DNA of 57,775 nucleotides from an uncultured Ectothiorhodospiraceae bacterium (GTDB lineage: Bacteria; Pseudomonadota; Gammaproteobacteria; UBA6429; Thiohalophilaceae), in the NCBI GenBank assembly GCA_947260005.1, contig CAMYOL010000020.1:1-57775 (forward strand), read 5' to 3'. Made by a program: the position numbers and the translations under genes. The notes beneath the pieces were generated by a model. It did no database searches and was not told the DNA's origin. It worked only from the letters and a program-made list of their open reading frames with translations. Numbering within the stretch: position 1 is the first letter of the stretch; each line of letters starts with the position of its first letter. Of this stretch, positions 27,971-38,954 are shown in pieces.

Positions 27971-28358
27971 TTGAATACAACAAGCCTACATTCAGTATTA
28001 CTTTTATCGCACAAAAATGGATAACTTAACTAGCTGGTTACTGTAAATGACACGAGTTGAGTCGAAACGTCGTGAAACTAAACGACGTAAAACTAAACAC
28101 CATGCCAATTATTCAATACTATTATATACCGAAATTTTCACACATGACATGGTTAAAATACAACCACTCTTGCCCCGAAATAACTCAAACTGATAGGCCT
28201 TGCGCCTTCTTGGTGCATATGATTAAATGAGCTTATCCTTAAGCTATTGAAATACTTAATTATTATAAGCAGGGTAACGGTGGCATAGCGTTTGCTCAGG
28301 AGTAATAAAAGAATAGTAATACTCAAACTTAATTTCGTAATACTCGAGGAGTGAATCT
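27971..28358 (+). other. Leader region of the guanidine operon
   Basis: This is 388 AT-rich bases before the ABC transporter genes. A 7-bp perfect stem ACGTCGT/ACGACGT (28067-28073 and 28082-28088, 8-base loop) is near the far end. The near end holds a direct repeat described separately. I looked for a guanidine-I (ykkC) or guanidine-II element here and found neither; the riboswitch-like element in this operon lies farther downstream, at 33265-33309. Confidence 0.45.
28300..28345 (+). promoter_or_regulatory. Candidate operator: tandem GTAATACTC boxes upstream of the guanidine operon
   Basis: GTAATACTC occurs at 28316-28324 and again at 28337-28345, exactly 21 bp (two helical turns) apart. 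An imperfect inverted copy, GAGTAAT, is at 28300-28306. The second box ends just before the ribosome-binding site GAGGAG (28347-28352) of the substrate-binding protein gene at 28359. Helically phased repeats this close to the start suit a repressor, plausibly the NikR-like ribbon-helix-helix protein encoded in the operon. Binding is inferred only. Confidence 0.35.
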
Positions 28359-29336
28359 ATGAAGTTATCAATCGGTAAATTTTTTACGAGCCTGGTCGCG
28401 GCTTTTTTATTAACGGGGATAGCCAATGCAGCCGATCCAATTCGAATTGGATACAGTGATTGGCCTGGTTGGGTTGCCTGGGAAGTCGGGATTGAAAAAG
28501 ACTGGTTTAAAGAAGCCGGTGTTGACGTTAAGTTTGAGTGGTTTGACTATGTGGCCTCTATGGATGCGTTTGCTGCAGGCAAGTTAGATGCCGTTTGCAT
28601 GACCAATGGCGACACACTGGTAACAGGTTCAACGGGTGCTAAAAGCGTCATGTTCCTGATGAATGATTATAGCAACGGTAATGATATGGTGATTGGCGCC
28701 CCTGGTATTAAATCAGTCAAAGACCTAAAAGGCAAAAAGGTCGGGGTTGAAATCGGTTTTGTTGGTCATCTGATTTTATTGAATGCATTAAAAGATAATG
28801 GTATGAGTGAAAAAGATGTCGAGCTGGTCAATGTGCCGACCAACGAAACACCACAGGTACTCGCATCTGGCCAGGTATCAGCAATAGTTGCGTGGCAACC
28901 TAATTCAGGTCAGGCATTAAAGTTAGTACCTGGGTCTAAAAAGTTATATAGCAGTGCTGATAAACCGGGTCTCATCTATGACATGCTGGCCGCAAGCCCG
29001 CAAAGTTATTCTGCTCGCAAGGCTGAATATGAAAAAATTTCAAAAGTCTGGTATCGCATTGTAGAGTACATTCAAAACCCAAAAACGCATGATGATGCAA
29101 TTAAGATCATGGCTTCACGCGTTGGTTTAAATCCAAAAGAATATGCTGAGATTGTTAAGGGCACCAAGATCTTAACCTTGAAAGAAGCTAAAAATTTCTT
29201 TAAAGAAGGAGAGGGTTTCAAATCTATATATGGTTCCTCTAAAATCTCGGATGATTTTAATGTTGCTAATAAGGTGTATAAAAAACCTGAGAATATTAAA
29301 TCTTATATCGACACCGCTATTATCAATAAAATGTAA
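28359..29336 (+). CDS. ABC transporter substrate-binding protein (NMT1/SsuA-like), probable guanidine/urea-type uptake
   Basis: A 325-residue periplasmic protein with a Sec signal cleaved after about residue 24 (GIANA-AD). The mature part is an NMT1/SsuA-like periplasmic-binding fold: [17 protein letters not shown], a first hinge at [20 protein letters not shown], and [14 protein letters not shown]. It heads the guanidine operon, ahead of permease and ATPase genes, so it is the capture subunit. Relatives carry nitrate, sulfonates, thiamine precursors or urea-like compounds; guanidine is inferred from the enzymes downstream. A hairpin after this gene may raise its level over the other subunits. 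Ribosome-binding site GAGGAG. Confidence 0.85.
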
Positions 29337-29465: not shown

Positions 29466-30425
29466 ATGTCAGCGCCTTCAAAAATTAAAAGAAAATTTAT
29501 GCAGCATCAGGGTGTGATTCTGGCGATGTTCAGTTTTCTTATTCCTCTGATGATTTGGTCAATTGTCAGTTATGTACCGTTTGTATGGCATCCGAAAGTA
29601 AAAATAACAGTCCCTGGCGAAGTTTCTTATTTTAGTGAAGGTCTGCTTGTTGATAGAGATGTCTTCGAAAGAGAAAAGTCTGATGTGCTTGCTCAAGGTA
29701 AAACGATACCTGAAGGTGTGCCGGCCAATCCGATATATTTTCCAGCTCCCGACGAGGTTGCAACTGCCTTTTATACTGCTTTCGTCACTGAACCTAAACG
29801 ACGAAATGAAAAATGGTTGCATGAAAGTTTATGGGATAGTATTCAGGTTATATTTTGGGGGTTTGTTATCTCGTCTATTTTCGGTGTGCCATTAGGCGTG
29901 TTGATGGGAACCTACCGTGTATTTTCTAAATTAAATGAGCCTTTTATCGAATTTTTTCGTTATTTGCCCGCGCCCGCATTCGGGGCTCTGGCCGTTGCAA
30001 TTTTAGGTATCCATCAGGGACCTAAAATTGCCATTATATTCATCGGAACCTTTTTTCAACAAGTCTTGGTGATTGCAAATACCACACGTAAGCTTGATCC
30101 CATGTTAGTCGAGGCGGCATTAACTCTTGGCGCAAAACGCACATCATTGTTATTTAAAGTGATCATCCCCGGAATTAGCATAAACTTATATCGCGATCTG
30201 AGAATATTGTTAGGGTGGGCATGGACATATTTAATCGTTGCTGAGCTTATCGGTTCAAGTTCGGGTATTACCTGGTTTATTACTCAACAGGCTCGTTATA
30301 AAAATTTCGATAATGTTTATGCGGCGATCATGATGATTGGTATTATTGGCTTATTTAGTGACATCATTCTAGGCTGGTTTGGTAAACGAATGTTCCCCTG
30401 GGAACAGAACAAATCATTGTCTTAA
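29466..30425 (+). CDS. ABC transporter permease (SsuC/TauC-like)
   Basis: A 319-residue inner-membrane protein of the binding-protein-dependent permease family. An N-terminal helix (about 16-40) is followed by a periplasmic insert of about 60 residues and the core transmembrane domain (about 110-310). The coupling EAA loop is visible as [20 protein letters not shown]. It forms the channel for the SsuA-like binding protein upstream and the ATPase 19 bases downstream. The periplasmic insert is longer than in SsuC/TauC. Substrate inferred as guanidine from context. Confidence 0.88.
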
Positions 30426-30444: not shown

Positions 30445-31362
30445 ATGAATAAACTTGATTTACCCAGTTATCTGGACCAATCTGATGAGGTCAAGGCGCG
30501 TTTTGATAGATTAAAGCAACGCCCGGTCATTCTGGATATTAAAGAGTTTACCAAAATTTTTGAAACACCAACTGAGGATGTTGTTGCGGTTAAAGATTTA
30601 AATTTTAAAACCTACCGGCGGGAATTTGTATGTGTCATCGGACCTTCTGGATGTGGTAAATCAACTTTAATTAGAACACTTGCTGGATTAGAGACGAAAA
30701 CGTCTGGACAGGTATTACTTGATGGTGAAGAAATCGATGGGCCTGGACCGGAACGTGGTATGGTATTTCAGGGGTATACATTATTTCCATGGCTATCTGT
30801 TAAACGTAATGTCATGTTTGGTCTTGAAATAGCGGGACATGGTAAGAGTCCTGCGGAAGAAGAAGCATTACAATGGATTGATCTGGTTGGCCTTAGTAAA
30901 TTTACGAATGCCTATCCACATCAACTATCCGGCGGCATGAAACAAAGAGTGGCAATTGCCAGAGCTCTGGCAAATAAACCTCGTATACTCTTAATGGATG
31001 AACCTTTCGGGGCGCTTGATGCACAAACTCGAGCAAAAATGCAGGCGTACTTATTAGACATCTGGCGTAATATTGATGTGACAATAATATTTATTACTCA
31101 TGATTTAGACGAGGCTGTCTATCTGGCGGATCGGGTATTAGTCTTAAAGGCTCACCCAGGAGAAGTACAAGAAATAGTTGAGGTGCCAGTACCGCGACCT
31201 CGTTCTCCAGAACAATTCTTAAGTCCTGAATTTTTAGCAACCAAAGCACGATTAGAAGAACTTATTCATCCTCCTGGAGACCCCGATCCTGAGTTGCCCG
31301 GTGATCATATGAATATGATGAATATGGTGCCAGTTAATGATGAAGTCGACAAAGTAGAGTAA
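30445..31362 (+). CDS. ABC transporter ATP-binding protein
   Basis: A 305-residue ATPase of the nitrate/sulfonate/taurine group. All motifs are present: Walker [11 protein letters not shown]-loop [10 protein letters not shown], signature [15 protein letters not shown], Walker [13 protein letters not shown] and the switch His in FITHDLDEA. The C-terminus ends in a Met/Asn-rich tail ([13 protein letters not shown]) of unknown role. I place the start at the ATG at 30445; upstream in-frame codons reach 30379 but overlap the permease gene and have no family support. Powers the transporter encoded just upstream. Confidence 0.92.
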
Positions 31363-31371
31363 GTTGATTAA

Positions 31372-31833
31372 ATGGATATTGCAACGAAATCAGATATATC
31401 ACGAATCAGTATTTCATTGCCCACCAGGGTACTAACTGAATTTGATAAAATGCTTGTTGAGCGTGGTTTTGATAGTCGTTCTCAAGCGATTTCAGAGCTG
31501 GTCAGTATCCAGGTTGCGGAACATAAGAAGGACATGGGTAATGAGATTATGGCTGGAACGATCAACCTGGTATACGTACATTCGACTCCAGGGCTGATCA
31601 ATAGATTAAGTGATATTCAACATGAACATATCGACGAGGTTATTAGCTCATTGCATATAAACTTAATAGACTCACAAACTTTGGAAGTCATTTTGGTGCA
31701 GGGGCCTGCTAAGACATTGAAACTAATTGCTGATAAAATGTTGTCTTGTCGTGGCGTTATGTCTGGGAAACTATTGATTTCGGCGGCGATAATGCCACAA
31801 TTGCATCCTATGACCGTGCTGGGTTCAAATTAA
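31372..31833 (+). CDS. NikR-family ribbon-helix-helix regulator lacking two nickel ligands
   Basis: A 153-residue NikR-type repressor. Residues 10-50 form the ribbon-helix-helix DNA-binding domain (SRISISLPTRVLTEFDKMLV); residues about 60-140 form the ACT-like domain. Aligned without gaps to E. coli NikR, His76 and His87 are kept (His84, His95), but His89 is Asn97 and Cys95 is Thr103. The canonical square-planar nickel site is therefore broken, and the protein probably senses something else or uses another site. It lies 9 bases after the ATPase gene and inside the guanidine operon, so autoregulation of this operon is likely. A C-terminal extension of about 15 residues is present. Confidence 0.82.
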   Translation: MDIATKSDISRISISLPTRVLTEFDKMLVERGFDSRSQAISELVSIQVAEHKKDMGNEIMAGTINLVYVHSTPGLINRLSDIQHEHIDEVISSLHINLIDSQTLEVILVQGPAKTLKLIADKMLSCRGVMSGKLLISAAIMPQLHPMTVLGSN

Positions 31834-31845
31834 GATTAAATAATT

Positions 31846-32589
31846 ATGATTAAAGTAAAAACTTCTTCAAGTAATATATTATATGCAGATACTATCAATG
31901 GTGCATGCCATTGGTCTATGCGTATGCGCAGAGGGACCACATTACGTTTAAAAGATATTGAGGGTGGTGCCAATGTGGGTATGTTATTTTATAACCCTGA
32001 AAACTTACTTGAACGATATAATGCGCCCGATACTTTAAAGTGTCAGCATACTTTCAAAATTACAAAAGGCCACTGTTTGTACTCAGATATGGGACGTATA
32101 TTTTGTTCCGTTGTTAATGATGCTGCTGGTTGGCATGAAACGGTTTGTGGCAATACTACCAAATCCATGATCACTGAAAAATGGGGCGACCACTCTTATC
32201 AGGACTACCGTAATGACTGGTATAAGAATGGTTACGATAGTTTTTTGGTTGAGTTGGCAAAATACGGATTAGGGAAAAAAGATATGGCGGCTAACTTAAA
32301 TTTGTTTAGCCGGGTAGAAACAGATGATCAAGGTAACCTGAATTATATTCAAAACCATTCTAAAGCAGGCGATAGTATCGAGTTGAGATTTGAAATGGAT
32401 ACATTGGTTCTATTACATACTTGTCCGCATCCACTTAATACGGAAACTAACTACCCTAAAAAAGCCATTCAGTATGAAATATTTGTTTCTGATCCAGTAA
32501 AAGACGATGACATGTGTATGAACTCCTGTGATGAAAATGTACGTGGATTTGAAAATAACCGGATTTACCATCTCGGTCTGGGAAGTTAA
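31846..32589 (+). CDS. DUF1989 protein UAAP1, putative carboxyguanidine deiminase subunit
   Basis: A 247-residue DUF1989 protein of the urea carboxylase-associated type (UAAP1), recognised by RMRRGTTLRLKDIEGGANVG, NPENLLERYNAPDTLKCQHT, DMGRIFCSVVNDAAGWHETVCG, and the YKNGYDSFLVELAKYGLGKKD block. Together with the next protein it is known to form a carboxyguanidine deiminase (CgdAB), which converts carboxyguanidine to allophanate plus ammonia. Conserved Cys and His residues (HETVCG, HTCPHPLN) suit metal binding. It sits 12 bases after the NikR-like gene. Which of the two proteins is CgdA I cannot assign with certainty. Confidence 0.85.
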   Translation: MIKVKTSSSNILYADTINGACHWSMRMRRGTTLRLKDIEGGANVGMLFYNPENLLERYNAPDTLKCQHTFKITKGHCLYSDMGRIFCSVVNDAAGWHETVCGNTTKSMITEKWGDHSYQDYRNDWYKNGYDSFLVELAKYGLGKKDMAANLNLFSRVETDDQGNLNYIQNHSKAGDSIELRFEMDTLVLLHTCPHPLNTETNYPKKAIQYEIFVSDPVKDDDMCMNSCDENVRGFENNRIYHLGLGS

Positions 32590-32595
32590 CGATGA

Positions 32596-33246
32596 GTGAG
32601 ATTTATTGTGATTAGAGAAAGCAAGCTAAAATCTGATCAAGCAGTTTTTCGTGAAGTGGTCGCTGCGGGTGATTATTTTATGCGTCAGGTCAATGAAGGT
32701 CAGACTGTCAGAATACTGGACCTGGAAGGAAATCAGGCTGCAGATACCTTATTCTATTCAGCTAAAGATCCAACTGAGCGATATAGTGCTATGGATACTA
32801 TTCGTGAGCAAGGTAATGTATATCTTACGACTGATTCAATTTTGATGTCTAATGAATGTAACCCTATGCTTGATATAGTGGCTGATACCTGTGGTCGGCA
32901 TGATACCTTAGGTGGGGCTTGTGCGACTGAAAGTAATACTGTTCGTTATGCACTAGAAAAAAAATGTATGCATGCCTGTCGAGATAGCTGGTTGTTAGCT
33001 GTGGCAGAAAATGAGCAGTTTGCTATGAGCAAGCGTGATATAACACATAATATTAATTTTTTTATGAATGTACCCATTACTTCGGACGGTGGATTGACAT
33101 TTGAGGATGGTATATCGGCACCAGGTAAATACGTTGAACTTAAAGCAAGAATGGACGTAATCGTATTAGTTTCTAATTGTCCACAATTGAATAATCCTTG
33201 TAATGGTTATGATCCAACCCCGGTAGAAATATTAATCTGGGATTAA
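32596..33246 (+). CDS. DUF1989 protein UAAP2, putative carboxyguanidine deiminase subunit
   Basis: A 216-residue DUF1989 protein, paralogous to the preceding one. Typical UAAP2 blocks are [63 protein letters not shown] and [20 protein letters not shown]. It is the expected second subunit of the CgdAB deiminase. The start is uncertain: GTG at 32596 is used, and a GTG at 32608 is also possible. After its stop comes the guanidine-II-like element and then the carboxylase gene, so the deiminase lies upstream of the riboswitch-controlled part. Confidence 0.87.
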
Positions 33247-33264
33247 CATATTCTTTTTTGTCTT

Positions 33265-33309
33265 CGGGACGACCCGCTCGACAAACGTATTACGATGGGA
33301 CGACCCATC
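33265..33309 (+). promoter_or_regulatory. Guanidine-II (mini-ykkC) riboswitch-like element
   Basis: The 10-mer GGGACGACCC occurs twice, at 33266-33275 and 33297-33306. Each copy folds into a hairpin with an ACGA tetraloop closed by three G-C pairs. The first stem extends to C265-G276 (numbered within 33xxx, 4 bp), the second to GATGGG/CCCATC (33294-33299 with 33304-33309, 6 bp), with a 17-base linker. Two short hairpins with ACGR loops are the defining architecture of the guanidine-II riboswitch, in which each loop binds guanidinium. Its place directly before a guanidine carboxylase gene agrees with that ligand. No strong ribosome-binding site is visible after the second hairpin, so the switching mechanism is unclear. 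Confidence 0.8.
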
Positions 33310-33333: not shown

Positions 33334-36300
33334 ATGTTTAGTAAAGTTTTAATAGCCAATCGTGGTGCTATCGCCACTCGAATTATTCGTACACTTTATG
33401 AAATGGGTGTCCAGTCGGTGGCCATATTCAGTGAGTCAGATGCGGAATCCCTCCATGTATCACAAGCAACCGAATCCTATTCGTTAGGCGACGGTCTGGC
33501 TGCCGATACTTATTTAAACCAGGATAAAATCTTCTCTATCATCGAACAAAGCGGTGCTGAAGCGGTTCACCCAGGATATGGTTTTTTAAGTGAAAATCCT
33601 GAATTTGTAAATCGTTGTGAACAAAATGGTATTGCTTTTATCGGGCCGACAGCTGATCAAATGCGTGCCTTTGGCTTGAAACATAGCGCACGTGAATTAG
33701 CTCAGAAAAACAACATGCCCTTATTACCAGGCAGCGATTTGATTGATAATGTTAGTGAAGCCGTTGCCGTCGCTGATAAAATAGGCTATCCACTCATGCT
33801 TAAAAGTACTGCTGGCGGCGGTGGTATTGGAATGCAATTGTGCTGGAACCAGCAGGAATTAAATAACGCATTTGATTCAGTGCGAAGATTAAGCGCAAAT
33901 AACTTTTCTAACGATGGTGTTTTTTTAGAAAAATTTGTTGAGCATGCACGTCATATCGAGGTTCAAATATTTGGTGATGGAAAAGGGGATGCGATTGCAT
34001 TGGGGGAACGAGATTGTTCTACGCAACGTCGAAATCAAAAAGTTATTGAAGAGACGCCAGCTCCAAATATTCCAGAACATGTGCGTATAGAGCTTCAAAG
34101 CAAGGCAATTGATTTGGTTTCAGCGATTCATTATCGAAACGCAGGTACCGTTGAATATGTTTATGATCAGGAAACGGACCAGTTTTATTTTTTAGAAGTT
34201 AATACCCGATTACAAGTAGAACATGGAGTCACTGAAGAAGTTTATGGAGTAGATCTTGTTAAATGGATGATAGAGTTGTCAGCGGGTGAAATGTCAAGCT
34301 TGCCGGGTAATTTGCAAGCCTATGGTCATGCGATACAGGCCAGATTATATGCTGAAGATCCAAATAAAGACTTTCAACCGTCATCAGGATTATTAAGTCA
34401 GGTGGAATTTCCCATAACTGATGGCTTACGAATCGATAGCTGGATTTCTACCGGAATCGAGGTGTCACCGTATTTTGATCCAATGCTGGCTAAGGTTGTT
34501 GTTAAATCTGATACGCGTGAGCAAGCCATTTCAGATCTTCATACCGCACTAACTAATATTAAAATATATGGTATAGAAATAAATGCTCAGTATGTACAGC
34601 AAATTCTGGAGACGGTGGTATTTGAAGAAGGTCGAATTTTTACCCGCTTTTTAAATGAATTTGACTACCTCCCCAATACGGTTGATGTCATTAACGCGGG
34701 TACAATGACGACCATTCAGGATTATCCTGGCCGTACAGGTTATTGGGATGTTGGCGTACCTCCATCCGGCCCGTTTGATAGCCTGTCATTCCAATATGCG
34801 AACCAAATCCTGGAAAACAAGCCAGATGCCGCGGGTTTGGAAATCACCCTGAATGGTCCAACTCTGAGATTTAATTGTACAACCCAAATCGCACTTACGG
34901 GTGCGAAAATGGCAGCGTATTTAGATAATCAACCAATATCATTTTGGCAGGTTATTGATGTTGAGCCTGGACAGGTTCTTACTATTAACAAAGTTGAAGA
35001 GTATGGTGCGCGTGCTTATCTCGCGATAAAAGACGGATTTGTTTGCCCTGATTATCTACAATCAAAATCAACTTTTACTTTAGGGCAGTTTGGTGGTCAT
35101 GTTGGGCGTGCACTTCGAACGGGTGATGTCCTGCATATACCTTTATCGCAACGACAAGTTGTATCAAATCCATTTCCAGTAGAGCTTACTCCAGAAATAA
35201 GAGACCATTGGGAATTACAAGTTATGTATGGTCCGCATGGTGCCCCCGACTTTTTTACTGAGCATGACATAAAAATATTTTTCGAAGCAGAATGGGAAGT
35301 TCATTATAACTCGAGTCGTACTGGTGTCCGCTTGGTAGGACCAAAACCTCATTGGGCCAGAACTGATGGCGGTGAAGCAGGTATGCATCCTTCCAATATA
35401 CATGATAATGCTTATGCCATCGGCACGGTAGATTTTACTGGCGATATGCCTGTGATACTTGGTCCCGATGGTCCGTCTCTAGGTGGATTTGTTTGCCCGG
35501 TTACAGTGATATCTGCAGATCTGTGGAAGCTCGGACAACTAAAGGCCGGTGACAAAATACGGTTTGTACCAGTTGATTTAAAGTTGGCCACAAAGAAAGA
35601 AAAAAAACAAATGAGCATGATCGAATCACTTGTTTATGCAGATACTAGTATAAAATCTGTTAATTTAGATTCTATTATCGCTGCTTCTCCGATCATTAAA
35701 AAAATCGATAAAGATGCCAAAGGCCCGCAAATAGTCTACAGACCTGCAGGTGATAAATATTTACTAATTGAATATGGTCCATTAGTGCTGGATATTGAAT
35801 TACGTTTTCGTGTCCATGCGGTGTATTTATTACTCCAGGAAAAAAATATTGCGGGCGTGCTCGATTTAACTCCAGGTATTCGTTCTTTACAGATTCATTA
35901 CAATAATCACAAAATTGCACTTAATGACCTTCTGGCCATTCTCGAAGAGCTAGAAAAAAACATTGATAATGATGCAGAGTTAACCGTTTCTGCGAGAATT
36001 GTGCATTTACCCTTAAGTTGGGATGATGAAGCCTGTCATCAGGCAATCGAAAAATACATGCAGTCAGTACGTAGTGACGCCCCCTGGTGCCCAAGTAATA
36101 TCGAATTTATTCGTCGAATTAATGGCCTGGACAGTATCGATGATGTAAAAGAAATTGTATTTAATGCTAAGTACTTGGTAATGGGGCTTGGTGATGTTTA
36201 TTTGGGTGCTCCCGTTGCAACGCCGATAGATCCTCGACACAGACTCGTGACAACAAAATATAACCCAGCCCGCACCTGGACAGCCGAAAACTCGGTTGGT

Positions 36301-36942
36301 ATTGGCGGCTCGTATTTGTGTGTCTATGGAATGGAAGGGCCAGGTGGTTATCAATTTATTGGTCGTACACTGCAAATGTGGAATCGATATAAAACGACAA
36401 AAGAGTTTACCAAGCCATGGCTGTTACGATTTTTTGATCAAATTCAATTCTATGAAATTACATCTGAAGAGTTAAAGCAAATTCGAAAAGATTTCCCAAA
36501 TGGACACTACCCCTTAAAAATCGAAGAAATAGAATTTAAACTATCAGAATATAAAAATTTTTTATTAAAACATTCCGAATCTATAGGTGAATTCTCTGAC
36601 GCCAGAAAAAAAGCCTTTGATGATGAGTTGCAACGCTGGATTGCGTCTGGACAAATAAATTATGATTCTGAACAAGATTTGGATGCGGAGATATTAGATG
36701 AGGAATTCTTACCTGATAATGGCATCGTAATACAAAGTAGCGTAGCAGGTAGTGTCTGGGAGATTCTAGTTGAACCCGGTGAACAAGTAGAGATAGGCCA
36801 GCCACTAGTAATTTTAGAATCCATGAAAATGGAAATTACAATTAAATCTACACATAACGGAACGGTCTATGATATTAGTAGACACAAAGGAAGTCAGGTC
36901 GGGGCAGGTCAGGGTCTGTTAGTGATTCAGGAAAATATATAA
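33334..36942 (+). CDS. Biotin-dependent guanidine (urea-type) carboxylase
   Basis: About 1202 residues in the domain order of urea carboxylase: biotin carboxylase with ATP-grasp (about 1-450, starting MFSKVLIANRGAIATRIIRT, with STAGGGGIGMQ and the QVEHGVTEEVYG region), a KipA/AHS2 carboxyltransferase part (about 470-770), a KipI/AHS1 part (about 800-1020) and a C-terminal biotinyl domain with ESMKMEI. Urea and guanidine carboxylases share this layout. Guanidine is preferred because both deiminase subunits (UAAP1/2) and a guanidine-II-like element adjoin it. The product carboxyguanidine goes to CgdAB. The start is set at ATG 33334; in-frame ATGs at 33316 and 33295 are less likely, and the latter lies inside the riboswitch hairpin. 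Confidence 0.87.
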   Translation: MFSKVLIANRGAIATRIIRTLYEMGVQSVAIFSESDAESLHVSQATESYSLGDGLAADTYLNQDKIFSIIEQSGAEAVHPGYGFLSENPEFVNRCEQNGIAFIGPTADQMRAFGLKHSARELAQKNNMPLLPGSDLIDNVSEAVAVADKIGYPLMLKSTAGGGGIGMQLCWNQQELNNAFDSVRRLSANNFSNDGVFLEKFVEHARHIEVQIFGDGKGDAIALGERDCSTQRRNQKVIEETPAPNIPEHVRIELQSKAIDLVSAIHYRNAGTVEYVYDQETDQFYFLEVNTRLQVEHGVTEEVYGVDLVKWMIELSAGEMSSLPGNLQAYGHAIQARLYAEDPNKDFQPSSGLLSQVEFPITDGLRIDSWISTGIEVSPYFDPMLAKVVVKSDTREQAISDLHTALTNIKIYGIEINAQYVQQILETVVFEEGRIFTRFLNEFDYLPNTVDVINAGTMTTIQDYPGRTGYWDVGVPPSGPFDSLSFQYANQILENKPDAAGLEITLNGPTLRFNCTTQIALTGAKMAAYLDNQPISFWQVIDVEPGQVLTINKVEEYGARAYLAIKDGFVCPDYLQSKSTFTLGQFGGHVGRALRTGDVLHIPLSQRQVVSNPFPVELTPEIRDHWELQVMYGPHGAPDFFTEHDIKIFFEAEWEVHYNSSRTGVRLVGPKPHWARTDGGEAGMHPSNIHDNAYAIGTVDFTGDMPVILGPDGPSLGGFVCPVTVISADLWKLGQLKAGDKIRFVPVDLKLATKKEKKQMSMIESLVYADTSIKSVNLDSIIAASPIIKKIDKDAKGPQIVYRPAGDKYLLIEYGPLVLDIELRFRVHAVYLLLQEKNIAGVLDLTPGIRSLQIHYNNHKIALNDLLAILEELEKNIDNDAELTVSARIVHLPLSWDDEACHQAIEKYMQSVRSDAPWCPSNIEFIRRINGLDSIDDVKEIVFNAKYLVMGLGDVYLGAPVATPIDPRHRLVTTKYNPARTWTAENSVGIGGSYLCVYGMEGPGGYQFIGRTLQMWNRYKTTKEFTKPWLLRFFDQIQFYEITSEELKQIRKDFPNGHYPLKIEEIEFKLSEYKNFLLKHSESIGEFSDARKKAFDDELQRWIASGQINYDSEQDLDAEILDEEFLPDNGIVIQSSVAGSVWEILVEPGEQVEIGQPLVILESMKMEITIKSTHNGTVYDISRHKGSQVGAGQGLLVIQENI

Positions 36943-36944
36943 TT

Positions 36945-38762
36945 ATGAATATTTCTTTATTGGCTTTACGCGAAGCTTACTCAACAGGCGAGTTGTCGCC
37001 TAGAGCGTTGGTTAATTCAATTTTAAATAAATGCGAGAATCATCTTGAACACAATATCTGGATTCATCGTTTGTCTAAGGAGGAATTAGAACCCTATTTG
37101 AAACGACTAGAGCAGTCAGATCCAGAAGATTTACCTTTATATGGAATTCCGTTTGCAATTAAAGATAATATAGACTTACAAGATATTCCAACGACCGCGG
37201 GCTGTCTTGAATATAAATACACACCGACGAAATCGGCATATGTGGTCGAGGCGTTAATTAAAGCCGGTGCCATTCCGATTGGTAAAACTAATATGGATCA
37301 GTTCGCAACCGGTTTGGTTGGTGTCCGTTCTCCCGAACCCTGGGGACCATGTCGAAATGCGTTTAATAAAGACTATATTTCTGGTGGTTCCAGTTCAGGA
37401 TCAGCCGTGGCGGTTTCACTTGGTCTGGTGTCCTTTTCTTTAGGAACGGATACAGCAGGCTCAGGTCGCGTGCCAGCGGCATTAAATAATATTGTAGGAT
37501 TAAAACCCTCTAAAGGATTACTGAGTATGACGGGGGTGGTGCCTGCCTGCCGAAGCCTGGACTGTGTCAGTATTTTTGCATTAACGGCGTCAGACGCGAA
37601 TCAGGTGCTCAGTGTGTCAGCCAATTATGATGAACAGGATCAATATGCCAGAGAATGTGAATTCTCAAATAATCAACGTCATTTCGGTAATGTTACTGAT
37701 AAATTTATCTTTGCCGTTCCTACAGAAGATAAGCTTGAGTTTTTCGGTGATACCTCAGCAAAAGATCTATTTGAAAAAAGTATCAAGCAGCTTGAACAAT
37801 GTGGTGGAGTAAAAAAAGAAATTGACTTTAATTGTTTTCTTGCCGCTGCACGATTGCTTTATGAAGGTCCCTGGGTAGCCGAACGTTATGTCGCTATCGA
37901 AGAATTAATTAATAATAACCCTGGTGCACTGTTACCCGTGATTAATACCATTATTGGCGGGGGACGTGAAAAAACAGCCAGTGATGCATTTAAATCAGAA
38001 TATAAAATGCAACGTTACCGCCAGCAAGCTAAGTCAATCTTGTCAGCTGTTGATTTCTTAGTTACACCGACGATAGGAACAACCTACACTATTAAAGAGG
38101 TTGAAGATGATCCCATTGCTTTAAACAGCAATCTGGGTTACTACACCAATTACATGAACTTATTGGATTGTTGTAGCGTTGCGATACCATGTGGCCAATT
38201 AGAAAATGGATTGCCGTTTGGTCTCAGCTTGAACCACTTGGCTCAATCTGATCGAAAATTACTGTCCTATGCTAATAAATTCCAACACCTGTTTTCGTTA
38301 CCACTCGGTGCGATGGATTTATCGATATCAGATTGCGATATTGATCAGAATGAACTCCCGGTTATTACCGCATCAGAGAAAACATCAATTGTGGTGTGTG
38401 GTGCGCATCTTGAAGGACTACCGTTAAACTGGCAGTTGATGGAGCGGGGTGGTTATCTCGAATATAAAACAACCACCTCGAAAAAATATCGTATGTATGC
38501 CCTTGAGGGTGGTCCTCCATATCGACCAGGTTTGATTCGTGATAGTCAAAACGGCGAAGAGATCGAGGTCGAGGTGTGGTCCATCCCAACAAAAGAATTT
38601 GGCAGCTTTGTTGCAAATATTCCTGCGCCTTTAGGTATAGGCAAAGTGGAGTTATTAAATGGGGAGTGGCTCAGTGGTTTTATCTGTGAAGGTCACGCAG
38701 TTGTCTCTGCGACTGACATTAGTGAATTTCGAAGCTGGCGAAAATATATACAAAATAAGTAA
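36945..38762 (+). CDS. atzF: Allophanate hydrolase
   Basis: A 605-residue protein: an N-terminal amidase-signature domain (about 1-440) with the Ser-cisSer-Lys set in IPFAIKDNIDL, ISGGSSSGSAVAV and GTDTAGSGRVPAALNNIVGLKPS, plus a C-terminal domain (about 470-600) seen in bacterial allophanate hydrolases (GAHLEGLPLNWQLMERGG, YALEGGPPYRPGL). It splits allophanate into ammonia and CO2, the last step of guanidine or urea breakdown. It starts 2 bases after the carboxylase stop. Length is typical of AtzF. It ends the operon before a good intrinsic terminator. Confidence 0.93.
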   Translation: MNISLLALREAYSTGELSPRALVNSILNKCENHLEHNIWIHRLSKEELEPYLKRLEQSDPEDLPLYGIPFAIKDNIDLQDIPTTAGCLEYKYTPTKSAYVVEALIKAGAIPIGKTNMDQFATGLVGVRSPEPWGPCRNAFNKDYISGGSSSGSAVAVSLGLVSFSLGTDTAGSGRVPAALNNIVGLKPSKGLLSMTGVVPACRSLDCVSIFALTASDANQVLSVSANYDEQDQYARECEFSNNQRHFGNVTDKFIFAVPTEDKLEFFGDTSAKDLFEKSIKQLEQCGGVKKEIDFNCFLAAARLLYEGPWVAERYVAIEELINNNPGALLPVINTIIGGGREKTASDAFKSEYKMQRYRQQAKSILSAVDFLVTPTIGTTYTIKEVEDDPIALNSNLGYYTNYMNLLDCCSVAIPCGQLENGLPFGLSLNHLAQSDRKLLSYANKFQHLFSLPLGAMDLSISDCDIDQNELPVITASEKTSIVVCGAHLEGLPLNWQLMERGGYLEYKTTTSKKYRMYALEGGPPYRPGLIRDSQNGEEIEVEVWSIPTKEFGSFVANIPAPLGIGKVELLNGEWLSGFICEGHAVVSATDISEFRSWRKYIQNK

Positions 38763-38896
38763 CTATTCAAGCTGAGAGTATGTTAGAATTGCGCCGATTA
38801 ATATCCTATGTGTATTTATTATAGGTAATATAATCAAAAAGTTAGAGCGGTTATTTAAATTAAATATTAAGTAATGCTCTTGAATCGAATTGTTAA

Positions 38897-38929
38897 ACGG
38901 GTTCATATATATAGTGAGCCCGTTTTTTT
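38897..38929 (+). terminator. Intrinsic terminator ending the guanidine operon
   Basis: ACGGGTTCA (38897-38905) pairs with TGAGCCCGT (38915-38923) with one G-U pair, around a 9-base AT loop, and a run of seven T follows (38923-38929). It lies about 135 bases after atzF and 26 bases before typA, separating the two transcripts unless it is only partly efficient. Confidence 0.82.
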
Positions 38930-38954
38930 ATGTACATAGATTTGGAAAAGACAG

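Follow-up and report, generated by a model that had tools for sequence, protein, structure and literature searches.

The double hairpin that precedes the guanidine carboxylase gene gca in the window (the whole 57,775-nucleotide stretch of DNA analysed here) is quite probably an ordinary guanidine-II ON switch for gca–atzF, placed behind an operon head where a NikR relative with a degenerate nickel site replaces the guanidine-I riboswitch; the ligands and the repression by the NikR relative are predictions from sequence. According to a published account, slightly over half of guanidine-II riboswitches precede efflux pumps, and the remainder precede enzymes such as carboxylases (PMC5486947).

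Operon genes and substrate

All genes of the operon lie on the forward strand. The first three encode a transporter of type A, consisting of an ABC transporter substrate-binding protein (28359–29336; NMT1 Pfam and SsuA-family matches), a permease (29466–30425; PF00528) and an ATPase (30445–31362; PF00005). They are followed by the gene for the NikR homologue (31372–31833; PF08753) and by cgdA (31846–32589) and cgdB (32596–33246), which encode the carboxyguanidine deiminase subunits UAAP1 (TIGR03425, 333 bits; cutoff 206) and UAAP2 (TIGR03424, 340 bits; cutoff 285). The guanidine carboxylase gene gca (33334–36942; TIGR02712, 1832 bits) starts 24 nt past hairpin P2 of the element, and its homologues align from the Met at 33334. 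The last gene is atzF, for allophanate hydrolase (36945–38762; TIGR02713, 755 bits). A hairpin with a long T run at 38833–38937, past atzF, surfaced as a sub-threshold L20_leader match and is likely the operon terminator.

Asp700 of the carboxylase aligns with Asn1330 of urea amidolyase chain 5i8i, which we take to be the Kluyveromyces lactis enzyme. An Asp at this K. lactis position is described as a mark of guanidine carboxylases (PMC11410670). Asp700, the TIGR02712 match and the scores of CgdA and CgdB above the UAAP1 and UAAP2 cutoffs together make guanidine a well-supported predicted substrate of the pathway, and the proposal of an earlier note on this DNA that the substrate is guanidine rather than urea is supported by Asp700. 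With gca, a guanidine-handling gene thus lies directly downstream of the element. The window gca is 83% identical to that of G002, 80% to that of G003, 66% to that of the congener G001 and 63–68% to those of other genera of the family; this pattern (G001:C24 versus G002:C455 and G003:C14) suggests that lineages have exchanged the operon.

A guanidine-II aptamer in the gca leader

The sequence GGGACGACCC is present twice in the window, at 33266–33275 and 33297–33306, with no third copy on either strand, and the two copies were reproduced by none of 100 dinucleotide shuffles. They belong to hairpins P1 (CGGG-ACGA-CCCG, 33265–33276) and P2 (GATGGG-ACGA-CCCATC, 33294–33309), whose ACGA loops (33269–33272 and 33300–33303) are of the ACGR kind. 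The 17-nt linker between them (33277–33293) falls within the range of 7–40 nt given for guanidine-II (PMC7544219). Both hairpins are contained in the minimum free energy (MFE) fold (−25 kcal/mol), and equally good folding was obtained in 2 of 200 shuffles (z −2.63). The coordinates and the fold confirmed what the earlier note had described, namely a double hairpin of two copies with ACGA loops and a 17-base linker.

The guanidine-II model RF01068 aligned over its whole length with 33261–33308, scoring 28.7 bits (E 2.9e-4, 201 nt scanned). This score misses the gathering score of 32, which is a curators' cutoff and not a structural feature, and because of it a scan of the entire window at gathering level gave no match. 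The covariance-model check suggested earlier therefore returned a full-length match, but one below the gathering level. The low score is due to the short P1, which has four core pairs versus eight in the model. In the MFE fold, an outer helix (UUUGUC/GACAAA, 6 bp, 33257–33262 with 33280–33285) extends P1 to 33257–33285 across an internal loop of 2 + 3 bases, and the sequences of the congeners G002 and G003 allow the same pairing. The elements before gca in the relatives G034, G017 and G001 pass the gathering score. Searched across the whole genome, the window element had an E-value of 0.0013, and the sole other match at E ≤ 10 was a 14-base fragment (E 5.5); 33265–33309 is the only credible guanidine-II copy in the genome. 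Judged by its letters, the element is a genuine guanidine-II aptamer in the gca leader, with predicted ligand binding.

Guanidine-II commonly precedes gca

We surveyed 58 genomes including the one under study, 15 of which carry the long guanidine-carboxylase type (that of G006 is split over two contigs). Fourteen of these 15 operons, those of the congeners G001, G002 and G003 among them, have guanidine-II directly upstream of gca; in G022 it was recognised by sequence alone, being absent from the Rfam search listing. The exception is G008, where no guanidine-II was found in a cgdB–gca gap of about 30 nt. Both loops are intact in the window's own genome, G002 and G003, and the stems are fully paired in the former and nearly so in the other two. 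In L066 (G006) and L052 (G055), the P2 loop of the element upstream of gca reads ACGC and departs from the ACGR consensus.

To this sample were added 80 named loci found via CgdB (the top 80 among at least 545) and five gca operons found via the NikR homologue. Among the resulting 94 operons with a gca start, we counted those having two GACGNC loops 20–60 nt apart and no more than 140 nt from that start, and no pairing was asked for except the closing G and C; G201 was left out, its contig C87 agreeing with L068 (JANTGD010000087.1) in length and gene positions. Two such loops precede gca in at least 69 of the 94 operons, a sample that includes the best 80 of at least 545 loci. The figure is a lower bound because the loop-anchored count misses G230. 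Rfam detected guanidine-II before gca in G183, G165, G230 and G002, where simple regular expressions had missed it, and the idea that more distant NikR operons lack the element proved wrong for G183, G165 and G230.

The stems were compared over 62 distinct hairpin pairs. At pairs 2–5, standard pairing was seen for P1 in 232 of 248 cells (1000 shuffles: mean 142, maximum 166) and for P2 in 239 of 248 (mean 197.7, maximum 208), the significance of both figures being overstated because the sequences are related. The occurrence of GC, CG, AT and TA at single stem positions leaves little doubt that the apparent covariation is real. Assignment to the guanidine-II (mini-ykkC) class, as the earlier note had it, is thus supported by the full-model RF01068 match, the conserved loops and the covariation.

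Gene order supports the earlier statement that the element follows the transporter, the regulator and both deiminase genes, and the comparison with relatives that it had called for gave the 14 of 15 operons above. The accompanying view that an internal placement is unusual was not borne out. Guanidine-II inside the operon before gca occupies its usual position, one that is also in print, and rarity of this site was rejected by the 94-operon count, with its best 80 of at least 545 loci. In other operons of the sample, two guanidine-II-like loops precede cgdA (for example L079, L088, L106 and L128, with Azospirillum among them), and this position was confirmed by Rfam in L126.

Further guanidine-II elements were noticed on the way. 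In Alcanivorax and relatives (L073, L075, L077, L087, L089 and L103), a guanidine-II-like double hairpin was found by script before gca; the available text of one paper mentions Alcanivorax guanidine-II only before a SugE-like gene (PMC9788540). Two more elements, L033:1444–1491 (G034:C35; 39.8 bits) and G165:C43:64308–64355 (L192; 38.6 bits), each stand before an open reading frame (ORF) for a membrane protein of the FA_desaturase family (PF00487). The ORF after it belongs to the metallo-beta-lactamase family in G034 and is xylose-isomerase-like in G165. We know of no guanidine-controlled oxygenase of the FA_desaturase kind.

The operon head carries a NikR homologue and no guanidine-I

A search for guanidine-I (RF00442) in 27–39 kb of the window gave no match at E 10, and none was found at E 0.1 in the window's own genome and its three congeners (completeness 86 percent for G002 and 70 percent for G003). 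The departure from the known arrangement, unremarked in the earlier note, is a head without guanidine-I and with a NikR homologue instead. Guanidine-I was found in 8 of the 58 genomes, each time on the same contig as the gca operon and, in G006, on the strand opposite to gca.

We tallied the heads of the 15 gca operons of the 58 genomes and of the 80 named loci, using Rfam to detect guanidine-I in the relatives and a motif script for the named loci (with an Rfam check in 8 of 80). Among the 87 visible heads, drawn in part from the top 80 of at least 545 loci, 81 have guanidine-I only and six the NikR homologue only; none has both and none has neither (Fisher p 2e-9, with shared ancestry uncorrected). 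The eight loci of the 95 outside this count comprise six cut by a contig end (G002, G006a, L109, L091, L072 and G007) together with L127 and L144, where neither guanidine-I (Rfam) nor NikR was found in the 8–9 kb before cgdA. Including these two, the same sample gives 81 guanidine-I, six NikR, none with both and two with neither; L127 has guanidine-I before a separate downstream transporter, and L144 is without gca. G006b, which lacks cgdA and cgdB, was not counted, and G002 was not scored as NikR-type, its contig starting within cgdB.

A change of transporter as the cause of the guanidine-I loss was rejected, as both transporter types occur with either head. L126 and L129 combine the type A transporter with guanidine-I (91.1 and 88.3 bits, Rfam) and have no NikR. 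Conversely, G515, G542, G738 and G734, from another class of the phylum, combine the type B transporter with the NikR homologue and show no guanidine-I over the cut-off anywhere in the genome; their binding proteins are 56–59 percent identical to that of G019 (type B) and 30–32 percent to that of the window. In G696, which has the NikR homologue and gca, the stretch read showed no transporter. Of the seven NikR-clade genomes of the first set, one has guanidine-I over the cut-off (G251, on another contig, before a separate cgdA–cgdB–gca–atzF), as does one of eight further ones (G754, also on another contig).

The 18 NikR-type operons with gca divide by their guanidine-II. The element precedes gca in ten (G000, G001, G003, G007, G017, G034, G183, G165, G230 and G087), and none was found there in eight (G201, which equals L068, L091, G123, G515, G542, G738, G696 and G734); the cgdB–gca spacing is below 50 nt in L091 and G201.

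A NikR clade with a degenerate nickel site

The product of 31372–31833 is a NikR homologue by the models, matching PF08753 (E 1.9e-23) and PRK04460 (118.4 bits, cutoff 105), and it aligns over residues 9–138 with the solved NikR 2bj1. We take 2bj1 and 1q5v to be the NikR proteins of Pyrococcus horikoshii and Escherichia coli. At the four nickel-ligand columns, the window protein has His, His, Asn and Thr rather than His, His, His and Cys. The nickel-site Cys95 is lost in 22 of 22 homologues of the window kind (Thr, Ile or Ser instead), while all four ligands are kept in 14 of 14 other NikR hits (E ≤ 1e-25) and in 2bj1. A branch with support 100/99 places the 20 full-length homologues together on one side; finer tree order was not used because the program warned of long branches. 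In a class sample of 369 genomes, proteins of the window kind scored 121.8–289 bits (the 121.8 being a fragment, from G087) and other NikRs 103–116 bits.

The neighbourhoods of these homologues vary. Creatininase-family and glutamine-synthetase-like ORFs, lacking in the window, were seen by eye between the ATPase and the NikR homologue in L046 (G034), L065 (G007), L182 (G183), L183 (G165), L184 (G123) and L202 (G745); Pfam confirmed the creatininase in L046 and L202 and the glutamine synthetase in L202. In L203 (G425), the NikR homologue is divergent from a type A transporter, beyond which lie cgdA and cgdB; a strong guanidine-II (46.6 bits) precedes cgdA there, and the stretch ends ahead of any gca. 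In L185 (G251) and L202 (G745), a transporter, a glutamine-synthetase-like gene and the NikR homologue stand behind the operator-like repeat described below, with no carboxylase in the stretch read; the gca set of G251 lies on another contig, under guanidine-I. Since no gca accompanies the homologue in the stretches read of G251 and G745, a different guanidino compound may be its ligand.

Head promoter and operator-like repeat

An NtrC-like site (TGCGCCTTCTTGGTGCA, 28201–28217) and a sigma54-like −24/−12 promoter (TGGCATAGCGTTTGCT, 28281–28296), both on the forward strand, were found upstream of the operon with regular expressions for what we take to be the NtrC and sigma54 consensus sequences. 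Eleven NikR-type heads were read (in G230 the first gene found is the permease); like sites occur in six of the 11 for NtrC and in ten for sigma54. Sites resembling sigma54 promoters were found for 24 of 68 guanidine-I heads too, so this promoter type is common to both kinds of head.

Between the promoter and the first gene, 15 nt before its start codon, lies an operator-like repeat, GTAATAC-N14-GTAATAC (28316–28343, forward strand), whose exact match is unique in 3.71 Mb. The form GTAWTAC-N14-GTAWTAC is present at 14 of 14 positions in eight of the 11 heads (G000, G001, G003, G017, G034, G183, G165 and G251), at 13 in G201 and at 12 in G123 and G230, beginning 39–43 nt before the first start codon. 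It was first noticed in five of the heads and in G201; G183, G165, G123, G251 and G230 are independent, and three of them are perfect. Among eight further NikR-clade stretches, G745 has a perfect repeat before the binding-protein gene, and 13 of 14 positions match in G425 (between the divergent transporter and nikR) and in G738 and G696 (just before nikR); no repeat at 13 of 14 or better was found in the stretches of G754, G515, G542 and G734. The best scores in the 68 guanidine-I heads range from 8 to 12, with a single 12.

Within the window's own genome, the repeat is not enriched at up to two mismatches (86 matches versus 102 for the reversed control). Exact repeats occur in 10 of the 58 genomes, in five of these at the head of the operon, and the reversed control occurs in three genomes. 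Six exact copies elsewhere were checked with the operon proteins, which gave one nearby match, an ATPase at 37 percent. Additional copies in G165 stand before cgdA and before a divergent binding-protein gene (13 of 14 each), and a further one, with all 14 of 14, lies ahead of gca, upstream of guanidine-II; G123 has an additional copy before cgdA (13 of 14).

The repeat starts 19 nt past the sigma54-like site in the window and 4–7 nt past it in G001, G017 and G034. It would therefore lie over or just after the expected transcription start, and a tetramer bound there would block it. The spacing of the two half-sites, about two turns of the helix, would fit a tetramer like that of NikR.

What the head protein may sense

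On these grounds we propose, with the balance about even, that the members of the NikR clade without a nickel site are guanidine-sensing repressors of guanidine-utilisation operons, which would replace guanidine-I at the head while guanidine-II is kept in ten of 18 operons. A different signal, such as nitrogen status or another compound (2-oxoglutarate, glutamine, creatinine or methylguanidine), is possible but doubtful, and would give the homologue a job that differs from that of guanidine-I. The creatininase-family and glutamine-synthetase-like neighbours of the clade speak for it, as do G251 and G745, with a homologue but no gca in the stretch read, and the guanidine-I on another contig in G251 and G754. 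Such a signal leaves the absence of the homologue from all 81 guanidine-I operons without a clear reason, and NikR without guanidine-I occurs with both transporter types.

An ordinary nickel repressor that entered the operon by chance, leaving the head to NtrC and sigma54 alone, is improbable. The PRK04460 score over the cutoff and the sigma54-like sites in ten of 11 heads speak for this reading, but Cys95 is lost in 22 of 22 homologues, the clade is separate (100/99), most heads share the operator-like repeat, and the homologue is never found with guanidine-I in one operon. In addition, we know of no nickel enzyme in the carboxylase pathway, which also counts against a nickel repressor.

Output step at gca

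Hybridisation with the 16S tail gave −0.8 kcal/mol at the gca start versus −11.2 kcal/mol at the first gene. The Shine–Dalgarno is weak in many relatives as well, averaging −4.4 kcal/mol over 61 with a guanidine-II found by regular expression. Because the gca start has almost no Shine–Dalgarno, unmasking of this sequence is not an obvious mechanism here, and start-codon accessibility or coupling with Rho may be the output route instead. Inspection by eye revealed no conserved alternative pairing between the aptamer and the gca start.

We regard it as a tentative option that guanidine-II acts on transcript survival, through Rho-dependent termination or decay of untranslated gca, and not on Shine–Dalgarno access; the gca start without a Shine–Dalgarno and the length of the operon, in which 5 kb separate the switch and the promoter, would fit this, although coupling of translation to Rho is general and compatible with translational control. 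That the double hairpin is a decayed, non-functional guanidine-II remnant is very unlikely: against a score under the Rfam gathering level, a P1 core of just 4 bp and virtually no Shine–Dalgarno to control stand the intact loops in the window's own genome, G002 and G003 with stems paired throughout or nearly so, the element at the same place in at least 69 of 94 operons (with the best 80 of at least 545 loci included), and the extra outer helix that can stabilise P1.

Proposed mechanism

For the ON switch behind a NikR-type head, the following sequence of events can be envisaged. Upon nitrogen shortage, NtrC would fire the sigma54 promoter. The NikR homologue, as a putative repressor, would most likely bind the repeat at 28316–28343 and keep the operon silent as long as its ligand, guanidine or a close relative of it, is absent. 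In the gca leader, guanidinium would bind the two ACGA loops and lock P1 and P2 in a kissing pair, and this binding would raise the expression of gca and of the closely following atzF. Guanidinium would thus act a second time at the gca leader, such that the ATP-consuming carboxylase would be made only with its substrate at hand. The parts and their conservation come from the data; all binding, the direction of control and the targets of the NikR homologue are what we infer.

If correct, this scheme would provide a guanidine-responsive transcription factor and a case of RNA and protein sensors exchanging at one control point. In the open-access literature searched, with subscription papers and preprints outside it, no guanidine-sensing transcription factor was found. 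The mutual exclusion of guanidine-I and the NikR relative makes the latter a testable candidate for a guanidine-sensing protein, and the two kinds of head form a natural experiment in which RNA-based and protein-based regulation of a single pathway can be compared. An annotation that rests on a NikR model is no reason to assume nickel control when the gene lies next to guanidine genes.

Comparison with known systems

The riboswitch itself is one more member of a well-described arrangement. In Vreelandella boliviensis, guanidine-I is reported at the operon head and guanidine-II between cgdB and gca, with in-line probing and KD values for guanidine-II of 93 µM for guanidine and 83 µM for methylguanidine (PMC12508155). 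The window shares with V. boliviensis the riboswitch class, the cgdB–gca position and the pathway genes. It has neither the guanidine-I head nor the mgdH and mgdL that stand between gca and atzF in that species, but has the NikR homologue.

According to a review, the operons of Raoultella, Erwinia and Klebsiella have guanidine-I at their head and guanidine-II ahead of the carboxylase gene (PMC12186494). As in the window, importer and deiminase genes come first in these operons, followed by guanidine-II, carboxylase and hydrolase; guanidine-I controls the importer and deiminase genes there, whereas the window is without it.

The window protein resembles the NikR repressors 2bj1 and 1q5v in length and, by sequence, in its NikR_C domain. 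It differs from them in its nickel-site residues, which are His-His-Asn-Thr in place of His-His-His-Cys, in the half-site GTAWTAC, and in the location of its gene, which is not beside nickel genes.
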